Shown: positions 35,336-39,828 of the stretch, in pieces
How positions within the stretch are numbered: the first letter of the stretch is position 1
How the letters are laid out: every line of letters starts with the position of its first letter
Origin: Vulcanimicrobiota bacterium
Lineage (GTDB): Bacteria; Vulcanimicrobiota; Xenobia; Xenobiales; JADMJV01
DNA length: 64,000 bases
Direction of reading: 5' to 3'
Assembly (NCBI GenBank): GCA_019637395.1
Contig: JAHBVR010000008.1
Location: 248,001 to 312,000 of the forward strand
Program-made: the position numbers and the translations under genes
Notes under the pieces: generated by a model
Database searches by the model: none
What the model was told of the DNA's origin: nothing
What the model saw: only the letters and a program-made list of their open reading frames with translations

Positions 35336-36028
35336 TTAGAGCCCGGCCGTTTCCTCCACGCTTAACAAGCGATATTCGCCCGGGGCCAGGTCGCCGGTTT
35401 CGAAGCGGTGGAAGCGTTGGCGGTGGAGTTTCTCCACCTGGTTGCCGACGGCCAGCCACATGCGTTTGACCTGGTGGTAGCGGCCTTCGTGCAGGGTCAT
35501 CTCCACCTGCTGGGGACCGGTACCTTCGATAGCGCAGGGCAGCAGGGGCTTGTCGTCGTCCTCCAGCAGGGCTCCGCCGGCGCGCAGTTTCTCCAGTTGC
35601 TCAGGAGTGGGCGCATCCACCAGGTCGACTCGATAAACTTTGTCGATCTGAGAGCGGGGCGAGGTCAGGCGGTGCAGTGCCGCTCCGTCGGTGGTCAGCA
35701 GCAGCACACCGGTGGTGTCGCGATCCAGGCGCCCGACGGTGGAGAGAGCCGGCTTGCGCATCAGGTAGCGGTCGGGAAACATTTCGAAGACCAGACGGCC
35801 CACATCTTTGTGGCTGCAGGTCACGCCTTCGGGCTTGTGCAGGAGAATCCAGAGAGGATCGGGGTCGATCGGTTCACCGTCCCAGCAGACTTCAAACCAT
35901 TCCGCTTTCTGGTCGGCTTTGCGCGCCGGCTCCCCGAGTACGGTTACGCGATCGAGATTTTTACGAAGTTCGCTGCGGGTGCAATACCCCAGGTTCGAGA
36001 GCAGTTTGTCTAGGCGTTCTTTCGGCAT
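35336..36028 (-). CDS. rsuA: 16S rRNA pseudouridine synthase RsuA-like
   Basis: A 230-residue RsuA/RluB-type pseudouridine synthase. An S4-like RNA-binding region occupies about residues 1-50 (KERLDKLLSNLGYCTRSEL). The catalytic domain follows, with GRLDRDTTG at 99-107 and the nucleophile Asp102. The length and the S4 start favour RsuA, which modifies U516 of 16S rRNA, over the longer RluB/RluF enzymes. The start ATG lies 18 bp inside the end of the upstream methyltransferase gene, so the two are co-translated. The neighbours (RsmC-like and TrhO) also modify RNA, forming a small RNA-modification gene group. Confidence 0.88.
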   Translation of the reverse strand: MPKERLDKLLSNLGYCTRSELRKNLDRVTVLGEPARKADQKAEWFEVCWDGEPIDPDPLWILLHKPEGVTCSHKDVGRLVFEMFPDRYLMRKPALSTVGRLDRDTTGVLLLTTDGAALHRLTSPRSQIDKVYRVDLVDAPTPEQLEKLRAGGALLEDDDKPLLPCAIEGTGPQQVEMTLHEGRYHQVKRMWLAVGNQVEKLHRQRFHRFETGDLAPGEYRLLSVEETAGL

Positions 36029-36933
36029 TGAAACAGCTTATATCCGCGCTGCTGGCGCACCTCTATCAGTTGCAGATTAAGGGGGCCCAGTGCCTCCTGG
36101 TAAGGGAGGTGTTCATTGGCTACCATCCATAGAGTGCCGGAGCGGCGCAGGGCTCCTGCGGCGCGCGCCAGCAGGGCCAGGCCCAGGGCGCGATCCTCCT
36201 GGCCGGAACCGTGAAATGGCGGGTTTAAGGTGAGCCAGTCGTATCCGCCCGGTGGTTTTTCTTTCACCAGATCGAGCCAGAGGGGTCGGCAGCGCTCGTC
36301 GTGAGCACAATTGGCCCAGGCGGCCCGCACCGCTCGCTGATCCACGTCCACCAAGTCGAGGTGCCGGCAGCCGCGCTTCAAGAGTTGGCGGGCCAAAAGT
36401 CCGGGACCACAGCCCAGGTCAGCCCCGTCTCCAGGCAATTGGGCAGGCAAGAAATCCAGCAGTAATTGAGATCCTGGATCGAAACGATCCCAACTGAAGA
36501 GACCGGGACAGCTGACAAAATCAGCTTCGAGGTAGGGGGGCCGTAAGGCCAGGGGGTCCCCTTGATCAGGCAGGGTGTCCCGAGCCAGTTCCATGAGGCG
36601 GCAGTGATTCTGACTGAAAGAATCGATGGGTTTGAGCTGCTTACGCCAACCATCCGCTCCCAGCCGGTTCTCCGCGCACAAGAAGACGCGCCCCCCGGCC
36701 CGCCGGGCCAGGGCCAGGTATTCCCTGGTTTCCTCGCGGCTGGGGGTGGCCAGCACATGGACTTCCGGGAAAGTCTGCTGACCATCCCAATCGGGAGCTT
36801 CCAGGTTCAGACGCTGACTGCGATCCGGCTGCAAGACCGCGGCCGGCCGCAGCTCGGGATGGGCTCCCCCGGCTAACTGCAGGGCCGGCACCGGACCTCT
36901 TTGGCGGGCCAGCACTTCCAGGGCGGCTCTCAT
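36010..36933 (-). CDS. class I SAM methyltransferase, RsmC/RlmG-like
   Basis: A 307-residue protein with two tandem methyltransferase-like folds, as in RsmC (16S rRNA m2G1207) and RlmG (23S m2G1835). The N-terminal half lacks a clear SAM motif. The C-terminal half has ADLGCGPG at 171-178, LVDVDQRAV for the ribose-binding acid, and NPPFH at 237-241, the motif of N2-guanine and other exocyclic amine methyltransferases. The start at 36933 was chosen because it overlaps the trhO stop as ATGA. The exact rRNA target cannot be told from sequence, so no symbol is given. Confidence 0.85.
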   Translation of the reverse strand: MRAALEVLARQRGPVPALQLAGGAHPELRPAAVLQPDRSQRLNLEAPDWDGQQTFPEVHVLATPSREETREYLALARRAGGRVFLCAENRLGADGWRKQLKPIDSFSQNHCRLMELARDTLPDQGDPLALRPPYLEADFVSCPGLFSWDRFDPGSQLLLDFLPAQLPGDGADLGCGPGLLARQLLKRGCRHLDLVDVDQRAVRAAWANCAHDERCRPLWLDLVKEKPPGGYDWLTLNPPFHGSGQEDRALGLALLARAAGALRRSGTLWMVANEHLPYQEALGPLNLQLIEVRQQRGYKLFQCRKNA

Positions 36934-37709
36934 GCCCGGGCGGGCTCGCAATAAAAACACGGTTCCAGCCCGGGCTGGCCGCATTCAGGGCAGCGCCGAT
37001 AGCGCTCGCTGGGCTGCAGGTTCTGGTCGAGGGCCACGCGATCATCGAAGACGAAGCATTCGCCTTCAAAGAAGCCGTGGGGATAGCTCTCCATATAATG
37101 CAGAATGCCCCCGTCCAGTTGGTAGACCTCGGTAAAGCCCTGGGCCTTCAGGTAGGGAGCCGCCTTCTCGCAGCGGATACCGCCGGTGCAGAAGGTGAGG
37201 ATGGGCTTGTCTTTGGGGACATCCAGACGGGAAACGTAGTCGGCAAATTGAGTGAAGGTGCTGGTGCCCGGATCGACGGCCCCGCGAAAAGTACCCAGGC
37301 GGATTTCATAGTCATTGCGCACGTCCAAAAGCATGACGTCGGGACGTTGCAGCATTTCGTGCCATTCTTGCGGCGAAAGGTGGGGAGCCGGCGAACCCTT
37401 TCGACCGATGGCTCCGCTGGTGACCGTTTCGCGGCGGCGCACCACCTTCCAGCGGCGAAACGGGGCGAAGGCTGACTGGCTGCGTTTGATGATGCTCAAA
37501 GGCAGGCGCTCGGCCAGCCAGGTTTCGATGGCTTCGAGCGTTTCGGCCGCCCCGGCCAGAGTGGCGTTGAGGCCGTCGGGAGCCACCAGCACCATTCCGT
37601 TCAGAGGGGGCTGTCCGGGTTCCCAGCCTTGCAGTCTTTCCAGGAGTCTTTCGATTTCGCCATCCGAGAGCGGCGTCAGAGCATAGAACGTGGAAACCTG
37701 GTAGTTCAA
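36930..37709 (-). CDS. trhO: tRNA uridine(34) hydroxylase TrhO (rhodanese-related)
   Basis: A 259-residue rhodanese-like protein of the YceA/TrhO family, which forms 5-hydroxyuridine at the tRNA wobble position. The acylphosphatase-like N-terminal domain (residues 1-95) includes PDGLNATLAG and RRWKVV. The rhodanese domain has LLDVRNDYE near residue 128 and CTGGIRC at 174-180; Cys174 and Cys180 match the family active site. The C-terminal part carries cysteine pairs (RRCPECGQPG and CFYCEP) typical of the longer form. Its stop overlaps the next gene and its start overlaps the stop of the upstream gene by 4 bp. Confidence 0.92.
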   Translation of the reverse strand: MNYQVSTFYALTPLSDGEIERLLERLQGWEPGQPPLNGMVLVAPDGLNATLAGAAETLEAIETWLAERLPLSIIKRSQSAFAPFRRWKVVRRRETVTSGAIGRKGSPAPHLSPQEWHEMLQRPDVMLLDVRNDYEIRLGTFRGAVDPGTSTFTQFADYVSRLDVPKDKPILTFCTGGIRCEKAAPYLKAQGFTEVYQLDGGILHYMESYPHGFFEGECFVFDDRVALDQNLQPSERYRRCPECGQPGLEPCFYCEPARA

Positions 37710-39319
37710 CGGCGAGCCTTGATCCAGCCGGCCAGCGGCTCCAGAGAAATGCCCTTGGCCACCGACTCCAGCGCTTCCTCACAGCGCATCCGCAGCAACA
37801 GGTAGGGCGCCACCGGATGTTCCGGGTGATCCAGCAGATAGAGAGACCAGTTGCCATCCTCGGCCAGTTGGTTCAGGTCGGTTTTGGCCAGGGCTTCACG
37901 AATTTCCCGGCCGGCCAGTTGTAGATGAGCGTGCAGCCACATCTTGGCGCTGGGATTTTTCTGCAGCACCAGGCGCGACTCGTTCAGTTCCAGGAAAGCC
38001 ACCAGGCGTTCCACCGCGGACAGATGCAGAGCGCGCAGGAAGGGAGCGTTCTCAAGGGGCCGGGGATTGGGACCGGGTAAGTAAAGGGCCAGGCTGTCCG
38101 CCTCGGGTTTTGCTTGGAAGGCGCTGGAGGGTCCCCAATAAAGAGCGCCGTTCCGGCTTTCAGCCGGTAGGCGCAAGAGAGTGGCCAGGTTGAGTGGTTC
38201 GGGCGGCTGATGTTCGGGAGGGAAGGATTGAAAACCCAACAACCCCGGATCCAGCGGAACATCGCAGTAGACTCCGTCTTCCCAAGAAATAGAAGGACGG
38301 ATTCGGTAACTCAGCTTCGCTGCCTGAGCCTGCCTGGCCCAGTCCACCGCTCCACTGTTACAGGGATGGGCGGGAAAAAGCACCAGTTTGGGCCGGCCAT
38401 CGTCCGGCAACTGATTGAATTCAGTCACTAACTGGGCCTGAGGAACTTCCGCGATCGGCTGCAGGCTGTAGATGGCGCGCCCGGCCATGAGGTCGGTGGT
38501 CTCCTGGGTGCGATCGGCCCAGACCAGCCCGGTGCCGGCCAATTCCAGTTCCACCGGTTCTTCGCGAGGCCGCAGGTCGGGCGGCAGGCTATCGTAGGCG
38601 AGCGGGGGCACCCACAGGGTGTATTCACTCACCATCTCCACTTGATGGAGTTCTTCGAGGCGGCAGCGGTCGGCTCGGGTCGGACGTTCGGGGGAATTGG
38701 ACCCGAAGTAGAGTACCACTTCGTGGTCTGCGCCGAAGGTTTGGGCCAGTTTCTCTCCCAGTGCCCGAATGAAACCTCGGAAGCGACCGGGGATCCAGCC
38801 TCCCGTATTGTCCCCCAGGCTGGGCACCTGGAAAATGATTTGTGAACAGCCTGGATCGACGGCCACCGCATGTAGCAACAGATCGTGGCCTTCGTATATC
38901 TGCAGCCCGTAGCGGTGAGCGTCCACGCGCAGGTCGGCCAGCAGGCAGTCGATGGAGGAAACGCCGGGAAGGATCTCCACCTCGTAGCCCGACTGAGCCG
39001 TTTGTTCGATGGCCAGTCGGCTCGGGTCGCAGAAGACCAGGGGGTGCCCATAGGATACCAGGGCCGCGTTGCCGCCATCGTTCAGGCAGGCCAGCACTTG
39101 ATCGGCCATCTCCTGGTAGGTCTCACGCCGGGGCTTGCCCAGGGCGTAGTGAGTCATTAAATTGTAGAAGTTGGGGTTCAACTGGCGCAGCCAGGCTTGC
39201 TTTTCCAGATTGTCGGAAATCAGGAAGACCCGGTCGGCCTGGCGCAACGCCTCCAGGCAGCGATGGCTGGCCTGCTCGGGGCAGCGTAGCCCCAGTCCTA
39301 AAACACTCAACTTGGTCAT
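37706..39319 (-). CDS. borosin-type SAM methyltransferase fused to a long C-terminal region
   Basis: A 537-residue protein. Residues 1-240 are a tetrapyrrole-methylase-fold methyltransferase resembling the backbone alpha-N-methyltransferases of borosin peptides (OphMA, SonM): LGLGLRCPEQ at 7-16, RQLNPNFYNL at 45-54, PRRETYQEM at 63-71 with the Arg-x-x-x-Tyr catalytic pair, SYGHPLVF at 89-96, PGVSSIDCLLADL at 118-130 and HEVVLYFGS at 199-207. Residues 240-430 are not recognised. Residues 434-490 (SAVERLVAFLELNESRL, NPSAKMWLHAH, LAGREIREALAKTD) resemble in pattern the helical borosin-binding domain of precursor peptides. No clear core peptide is visible after it. It could also be a methylase of other function. 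Start at ATG 39319, with a weak ribosome binding site. Confidence 0.72.
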   Translation of the reverse strand: MTKLSVLGLGLRCPEQASHRCLEALRQADRVFLISDNLEKQAWLRQLNPNFYNLMTHYALGKPRRETYQEMADQVLACLNDGGNAALVSYGHPLVFCDPSRLAIEQTAQSGYEVEILPGVSSIDCLLADLRVDAHRYGLQIYEGHDLLLHAVAVDPGCSQIIFQVPSLGDNTGGWIPGRFRGFIRALGEKLAQTFGADHEVVLYFGSNSPERPTRADRCRLEELHQVEMVSEYTLWVPPLAYDSLPPDLRPREEPVELELAGTGLVWADRTQETTDLMAGRAIYSLQPIAEVPQAQLVTEFNQLPDDGRPKLVLFPAHPCNSGAVDWARQAQAAKLSYRIRPSISWEDGVYCDVPLDPGLLGFQSFPPEHQPPEPLNLATLLRLPAESRNGALYWGPSSAFQAKPEADSLALYLPGPNPRPLENAPFLRALHLSAVERLVAFLELNESRLVLQKNPSAKMWLHAHLQLAGREIREALAKTDLNQLAEDGNWSLYLLDHPEHPVAPYLLLRMRCEEALESVAKGISLEPLAGWIKARR

Positions 39320-39374: not shown

Positions 39375-39383
39375 TGGTATACT
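39375..39383 (+). promoter_or_regulatory. extended -10 promoter of the prepilin gene
   Basis: TGGTATACT is an extended -10 element (TGn + TATACT). It ends 7 bp before the prepilin ATG at 39391, so a leaderless transcript is predicted. No good -35 box is seen, which fits an extended -10 promoter. Confidence 0.6.
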
Positions 39384-39390
39384 TGTCCAG

Positions 39391-39828
39391 ATGTGGCGGC
39401 GTAAGCGGGGGTTCACCCTCATCGAGCTGATGATCGTGATTGCTATTATTGCGGTCCTGGCGGCGATTCTAGTGCCCAATTTCAAACGAGCCCGCGCGCG
39501 CAGCCAGTTATCCGCCTGCGTTTCGCAGTGTAAGTCCACGGCTACGGCCTTGGAAATGTATGCCGTCGACAATGACGGTCGCTTTCCCGATACCAGTGGA
39601 CTGCCCGGACTGGGGGTACTTACTTCGGGGAATTATCTGAAGCGGTTGCCCACCTGCCCGAGCCGCGGTACCTGCACCTTCCTGGATTACGTTGCCACTA
39701 CGACGCCTGATCGATTCAGTTTTTCATGCGTCGGCAACAACCACGGAGACTGCTTTCCCGGCTTGAACGGACTGAATATCCCCAGCTACAGCAACGACCT
39801 GGGCCCTACGCAGGAGCCGGCGCCTTAG
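39391..39828 (+). CDS. type IV pilin-like / pseudopilin protein
   Basis: A 145-residue prepilin with the canonical N-terminus: a short basic leader MWRRKRG, then the processed start FTLIELMIVIAIIAVLAAIL. Cleavage by prepilin peptidase would occur after Gly7, with Glu5 of the mature protein present. The C-terminal globular part has ALEMYAVDNDGRFPD and four or more cysteines (LPTCPSRGTCTF, FSCVGNNHGDCF), suggesting disulphide loops. Such single pilins are common in Ca. Eremiobacterota-like genomes as well as in type II secretion systems. No assembly ATPase is nearby. It is divergent from the borosin-type gene, with 71 bp between starts. Confidence 0.92.
   Translation: MWRRKRGFTLIELMIVIAIIAVLAAILVPNFKRARARSQLSACVSQCKSTATALEMYAVDNDGRFPDTSGLPGLGVLTSGNYLKRLPTCPSRGTCTFLDYVATTTPDRFSFSCVGNNHGDCFPGLNGLNIPSYSNDLGPTQEPAP

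Follow-up and report, generated by a model that had tools for sequence, protein, structure and literature searches.

The locus and its genes

The DNA analysed here, in the following called the window, is a stretch of 64,000 nucleotides from a genome of 36 contigs and 7.66 Mb; the genus belongs to Candidatus Eremiobacterota. On the minus strand of the window we find a frame of 537 codons which starts with an ATG at 39319 and ends with a stop codon at 37706–37708. The plus strand across 37706–39319 is broken by stops. A second in-frame ATG is present 17 codons further upstream, but the likeness to the orthologues and to SonM, the borosin methyltransferase of Shewanella oneidensis, begins at MTKLSVLG and not at the upstream ATG. 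Full-length orthologues with 72–90% identity were found in all four other congeneric species searched, thus in five species in all. The dN/dS ratio (NG86) is about 0.03–0.2 in the two domains described below (D1 and D2) and in the whole tail, and the highest value, 0.27, comes from a sub-segment in a single pair; every segment is under purifying selection. Since the frame is kept at full length in four congeneric species under purifying selection, it is a real gene and not a chance open reading frame. This confirms a sequence-only reading of the same DNA which had noted in this frame the motifs PRRETYQEM, SYGHP and PGVSSIDCLLADL. All three are found where expected in the protein.

The gene is the first of four genes in series with overlaps, the others being trhO, an rsmC-like gene and an rsuA-like gene (Table 1). 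Family models bear out these three neighbours as they had been named from sequence alone. The gene order is kept in three of the four orthologous loci (L019, L020, L022) and lost in L021, the locus of the most divergent orthologue. Upstream of the methyltransferase gene, on the plus strand at 39380–39828, lies a divergent type IV pilin-like gene (GFTLIELMIVIAIIAVLAAI) which is kept in three orthologous loci.

Table 1. Features of the methyltransferase locus (window positions; residue numbers refer to the 537-aa protein)
Feature	Position	Strand	Basis
Whole gene, 537 aa (P0001), stop included	37706..39319	-	four full-length orthologues
D1, residues 1–245, predicted catalytic borosin-type alpha-N-methyltransferase domain	38585..39319	-	SonM/OphMA matches; Pfam TP_methylase 5e-18
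Stretch with the predicted catalytic residues Y58, R64, Y68, Y90 (= SonM Y58, R67, Y71, Y93)	39050..39148	-	alignment to SonM
D2, residues about 253–418, very probably a degenerate second borosin methyltransferase domain with approximate boundaries	38066..38563	-	profile, hhalign, co-linear alignment with D1
Best-kept block of D2, residues 329–366 (RQAQAAKLSYRIRPSISWEDGVYCDVPLDPGLLGFQSF) = SonM 108–145	38222..38335	-	column-shuffle test
Site in D2 near residues 293–294 where the Tyr58 segment of D1 is absent	38438..38443	-	alignment of the D1 and D2 halves, 22-column gap
Helical tail, residues about 419–537, conserved within the genus and without a known family	37709..38065	-	no Pfam/NCBIfam/PDB match
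Residues 490–502 (NWSLYLLDHPEHP), nearly invariant, weakly like the SonA core	37814..37852	-	orthologue and SonA alignments
trhO (tRNA U34 hydroxylase), 4-base overlap with the methyltransferase gene	36930..37709	-	NCBIfam NF001133 206.6 bits, cut-off 170
RsmC-like methyltransferase gene	36010..36984	-	Pfam MTS 5.8e-36; RsmC model under its cut-off
RsuA-like pseudouridine synthase gene	35336..36028	-	TIGR00093 above cut-off

The catalytic domain D1

We compared D1 with the sequences of the PDB. With phmmer the top 25 matches are all borosin enzymes (5e-31 to 4e-26), among them SonM (7ltc, E=4.8e-31) and OphMA, dbOphMA and MroMA (4e-26 to 4e-30), whereas non-borosin TP-methylases score 0.003 or worse. 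Across the PDB searches with this domain the borosin enzymes lie between 1e-26 and 1e-36 and the other TP-methylases between 0.003 and 0.5. D1 can be aligned to SonM over its whole length with 33% identity and is 31–37% identical to the single-domain borosin enzymes of other families of the Eremiobacterota. The tyrosine, arginine and tyrosine of the catalytic set as well as the tyrosine contacting S-adenosylmethionine are all present, and Y58, R64, Y68 and Y90 are invariant in the five orthologues. In SonM, exchange of Y58, R67, Y71 or Y93 reduces activity (PMC8429565). Further, the lock partners E143, Q164 and F96 are retained, with F163 in the place of W166. Judged by its sequence, D1 is a borosin-family alpha-N-methyltransferase with the full catalytic set, and we predict that it is active. 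The sequence-only reading was thus right to place residues 1–240 with SonM and OphMA on account of the Arg-x-x-x-Tyr pair; the outcome it had named as adverse, best matches to other TP-methylases without this pair, did not occur. D1 differs, however, at sites which are usually conserved in the family (DP to DA, EAT to EGH, YEAA to YFGS). Because these sites are changed, the specificity of D1 may have moved away from that of the family.

A probable degenerate second methyltransferase domain

By eye, the motifs HP, PSIS and DPG..GFQSF recur downstream of D1 in the same order as within D1. Alignment of the two halves with hhalign places residues 106–145 on 330–369. We then built a profile of residues 240–537 from the five species and searched it against the whole PDB. 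Only six sequences matched, all of them SonM (best 1.5e-4), and the match falls at the homologous place. In the reverse direction, we combined SonM with 17 methyltransferases of other families of the phylum, leaving out the genus of the window. The resulting profile recognises the D2 of every one of the five orthologues (E 1.3e-4 to 0.016, Z=10,000), and of 1000 shuffles it matched not a single one. Compared by hhalign, the same profile matches the C-terminal region with 90.5% and E 1.3e-6. The likeness is strong only in a single block of 38 residues, which scores 18.3, while 150 column shuffles gave 9.7 at most. The flanks of D2 are weak when taken alone: the G-x-G stretch is correctly placed without significance (p 0.39) and the last strand reaches p 0.007. 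In addition, a haloarchaeal borosin methyltransferase can be aligned with the C-terminal model in two co-linear stretches.

In the co-linear alignment with D1, D2 retains the G-x-G loop, HP and the DPG..GFQSF block. The Tyr58 segment is missing, no arginine faces Arg64 and no tyrosine faces Tyr68. We therefore consider it very probable that D2 is a borosin methyltransferase domain which has degenerated and is catalytically dead. The profile match to SonM and the hhalign result thus give an identity to most of what had been set down as about 190 unrecognised residues (about 250–418). The earlier suggestion of a fused borosin with an unusually long linker holds as far as the borosin family is concerned, but its central point is mistaken: the supposed linker is this second, catalytically dead domain.

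How did D2 arise? Its best-kept block shares on average 13 and up to 18 of the 38 residues with canonical methyltransferases, but only nine with the D1 of its own chain. A recent internal duplication of D1 is thus unsupported, and because the canonical enzymes are nearer to the block than D1 is, the event that joined the two domains, be it duplication or fusion, is probably not recent. A search of 144 genomes from the rest of the phylum did not find the C-terminal region, and two exact peptide patterns, which reach close relatives only, did not reveal it outside the genus in a species-level genome collection. There is no match to it in Pfam or NCBIfam, and no relatives were found in the viral and phage collections. 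A match to a Thalassospira plasmid (E 0.01) was taken as chance.

Structure prediction with AlphaFold gave models of low confidence for the full-length protein and the C-terminal region (pLDDT 46.8 and 50.7); the alignments were shallow and confidence was low even over much of D1. In the second of these runs residues 246–345 reached block means of 50–86 with a beta-alpha-beta order like that of the first half of the family's domain, and Foldseek of the C-terminal model ranked SonM and a cobalamin methylase first (E 0.1–0.3). The alignment behind both results included rows of D1, so that neither is independent proof. The low-confidence models neither support nor refute a pairing of D1 with D2.

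The tail and the binding domain

The tail matches nothing in Pfam, NCBIfam or the PDB sequences and is helical in the low-confidence model. The sequence-only reading suggested that it may include a borosin-binding domain as found in precursor peptides. In pairwise comparison with SonA (query identical to PDB 7ltc_B) we obtained shuffle p values of 0.003–0.02 for four of the five orthologues and 0.13 for the fifth. For a more general comparison we used a binding-domain profile of 17 members, taken from small genes adjoining single-domain methyltransferases of the phylum; such a gene adjoins 16 of the 17 single-domain loci (weakest accepted E 0.004). With this profile none of the five tails scored above its shuffles, yet the binding domains of the fused borosins of Azospirillum (2e-5) and Mycetohabitans (0.0018) and of a Haloarcula precursor (1.8e-6; E-values for 11 sequences) were detected. 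Since the likeness to SonA is pairwise and marginal and the profile test is negative with working controls, we rejected the assignment as unproven. The Pfam model LigA matched none of the relatives including the controls and is hence uninformative.

The same profile did not reveal a separate borosin precursor in the five genomes of the genus; among control genomes it detected the precursors of G037 and G040 and missed that of G047, so that its sensitivity is less than complete. By sequence profile, a binding domain or clasp is thus found neither in cis nor in trans, which leaves room for a far-diverged clasp. Residues 490–502 are the only, weak, candidate for a substrate core in cis. Beyond them comes another helical stretch, also conserved, and not a hydrophobic core at the C-terminus.

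Proposed function and alternatives

We suggest, with modest confidence, that the protein is a tandem peptide-backbone alpha-N-methyltransferase of the borosin type with an intact D1, a shortened dead D2 and a conserved helical tail, in which D1 and D2 form a built-in pair and whose substrate is most likely a protein in trans. D1 would be the live catalytic domain with S-adenosylmethionine as methyl donor, D2 a shortened dead copy and the tail a set of conserved helices. Since the known borosin enzymes act as dimers (PMC8429565, PMC11285071), D2 could pack on D1 as internal partner, and this pseudo-dimer would have one active site per chain. D2 together with the tail might stand in for the binding domain as the surface where the substrate docks. 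The substrate would then most likely be a protein segment offered in trans, less likely the tail of the enzyme itself.

It is conceivable, although we would rather doubt it, that the internal pseudo-dimer has taken the place both of the homodimer and of the binding-domain precursor, and that the enzyme modifies a protein of the cell in trans. The enzyme would then be the first backbone N-methyltransferase of its family outside the synthesis of peptide natural products. Borosin enzymes, which methylate ribosomal peptides on their backbone, are under study as tools for drug-like peptides. If our suggestion is true, an enzyme with a dead second domain and without a binding-domain precursor would show that the family's way of recognising substrates can be rebuilt, and such an enzyme may work leader-free. 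Should the substrate be a housekeeping protein, internal backbone N-methylation in bacterial cells outside natural products would become testable.

An unlikely alternative, yet the one which survives best, is that the protein is a fused borosin which methylates itself. The tail would be a far-diverged clasp or binding domain which feeds a core at about NWSLYLLDHPEHP (490–502) into the D1 of its own chain or of a partner. The order of methyltransferase, helices and candidate core is that of the fused borosins, the alignment to SonA extends from the binding domain into the core in the four orthologues with shuffle p 0.003–0.02, and no separate precursor was found in the genus. It is difficult to reconcile with this that the binding-domain profile passes over every tail but finds the fused borosins of Azospirillum and Mycetohabitans, and that the candidate core is followed by conserved helices where a hydrophobic C-terminal core would be expected.

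We consider it improbable that the TP-methylase fold is used here on tRNA or rRNA. RsmI, a TP-methylase fold enzyme acting on rRNA, is a precedent, and the operon-like arrangement with trhO and the rsmC- and rsuA-like genes, which three of the four orthologous loci share, would fit. The protein matches RsmI only with E 0.3, however, and scores 14.7 of 502 bits with its model, whereas its best matches are borosins and the borosin catalytic set in D1 is complete. The idea of a tRNA-like substrate, put forward in the sequence-only reading, derives solely from the neighbours, and the neighbourhood is absent around the most divergent orthologue. Because the gene order is lost there and because the genome encodes its own RsmI-like gene (named by motifs), the neighbours count for little in our assignment of the substrate.

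Still less probable is a lineage-specific C-terminal extension of unrelated origin which resembles methyltransferases by chance or convergence. That the strong likeness is confined to one 38-residue block and that the region is found in one genus only would agree with such an origin, but a search of the whole PDB without a chosen target yielded SonM alone, none of the 1000 shuffles matched, and the blocks are co-linear. A cobalamin or tetrapyrrole methylase, suggested by the common Pfam family TP_methylase, is hardly tenable, as the models of CobI/CbiL (30.8 of 163 bits) and CobF (27.9 of 196), like that of RsmI, stay far under their cut-offs and the cobalamin enzymes in the PDB reach only E 0.02–0.1 compared to 1e-36 for SonM.

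Comparison with known borosins

Split borosins are common in other families of the Eremiobacterota, where the precursor lies directly upstream in 16 of 17 methyltransferase loci. On a Haloarcula plasmid (L061, 928–3123) a borosin precursor, a methyltransferase and a prolyl oligopeptidase follow each other, apparently an archaeal borosin cluster. Distant TP-methylases of 27–30% identity, each followed immediately by a small PqqD-like protein, are encoded in the same genus (G002, L013, 1274–2292, minus strand) and in the same order (G006, L011, 1366–2450, plus strand). Their catalytic arginine is apparently replaced (PLGTLYDFM and PVGELYDLM). The PqqD-like protein could be a RiPP recognition element; these genes are possibly another peptide-modifying pair.

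The closest known system is SonM–SonA of Shewanella oneidensis (type IV split, PMC8429565, PDB 7ltc). All catalytic residues of D1 are shared with SonM, and the block of D2 is within the PDB most similar to SonM. SonM, however, is a single domain of 263 aa served by a separate precursor with a binding domain, whereas the protein described here has 537 aa, two domains and a tail, and a precursor was not found with it. Type IV split systems have a single domain of about 260 aa beside a short binding-domain precursor; here the upstream neighbour is the divergent pilin-like gene. The split borosins of the same phylum (L008, L030–L044, L049) are likewise single-domain enzymes, with an adjoining precursor gene in all but one case.

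In the fused enzymes OphMA, dbOphMA and MroMA (type I), as in our protein, a C-terminal region follows the methyltransferase on the same chain. OphMA, which lacks a second methyltransferase domain, has a clasp and ends in a hydrophobic core; in our protein the C-terminal region, as in types I–III, is present, but part of it is a second methyltransferase domain, and neither a clasp nor a core is clear in it. A long C-terminal region is also seen in the fused bacterial borosins of Azospirillum (WP_014188741, 798 aa) and Mycetohabitans (WP_235091702, 738 aa), but there the binding domain comes soon after the sole methyltransferase domain. Both are plasmid-borne (Azospirillum lipoferum, L069, 875–3271; Mycetohabitans endofungorum, L070, 2877–5093) and have a long extra C-terminal part after the binding domain.

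PMC11395268 gives a summary of eleven borosin types and of one more that has been proposed, together with an unnamed group in which the core is followed by about 160 residues. None of these, as described there, has a second methyltransferase domain that is dead; types 0 and V–XI were compared by their summaries, and their full definitions might include a tandem type. Within these descriptions, the comparison suggests that the tandem of a live and a dead methyltransferase domain is a new layout for the borosin family.
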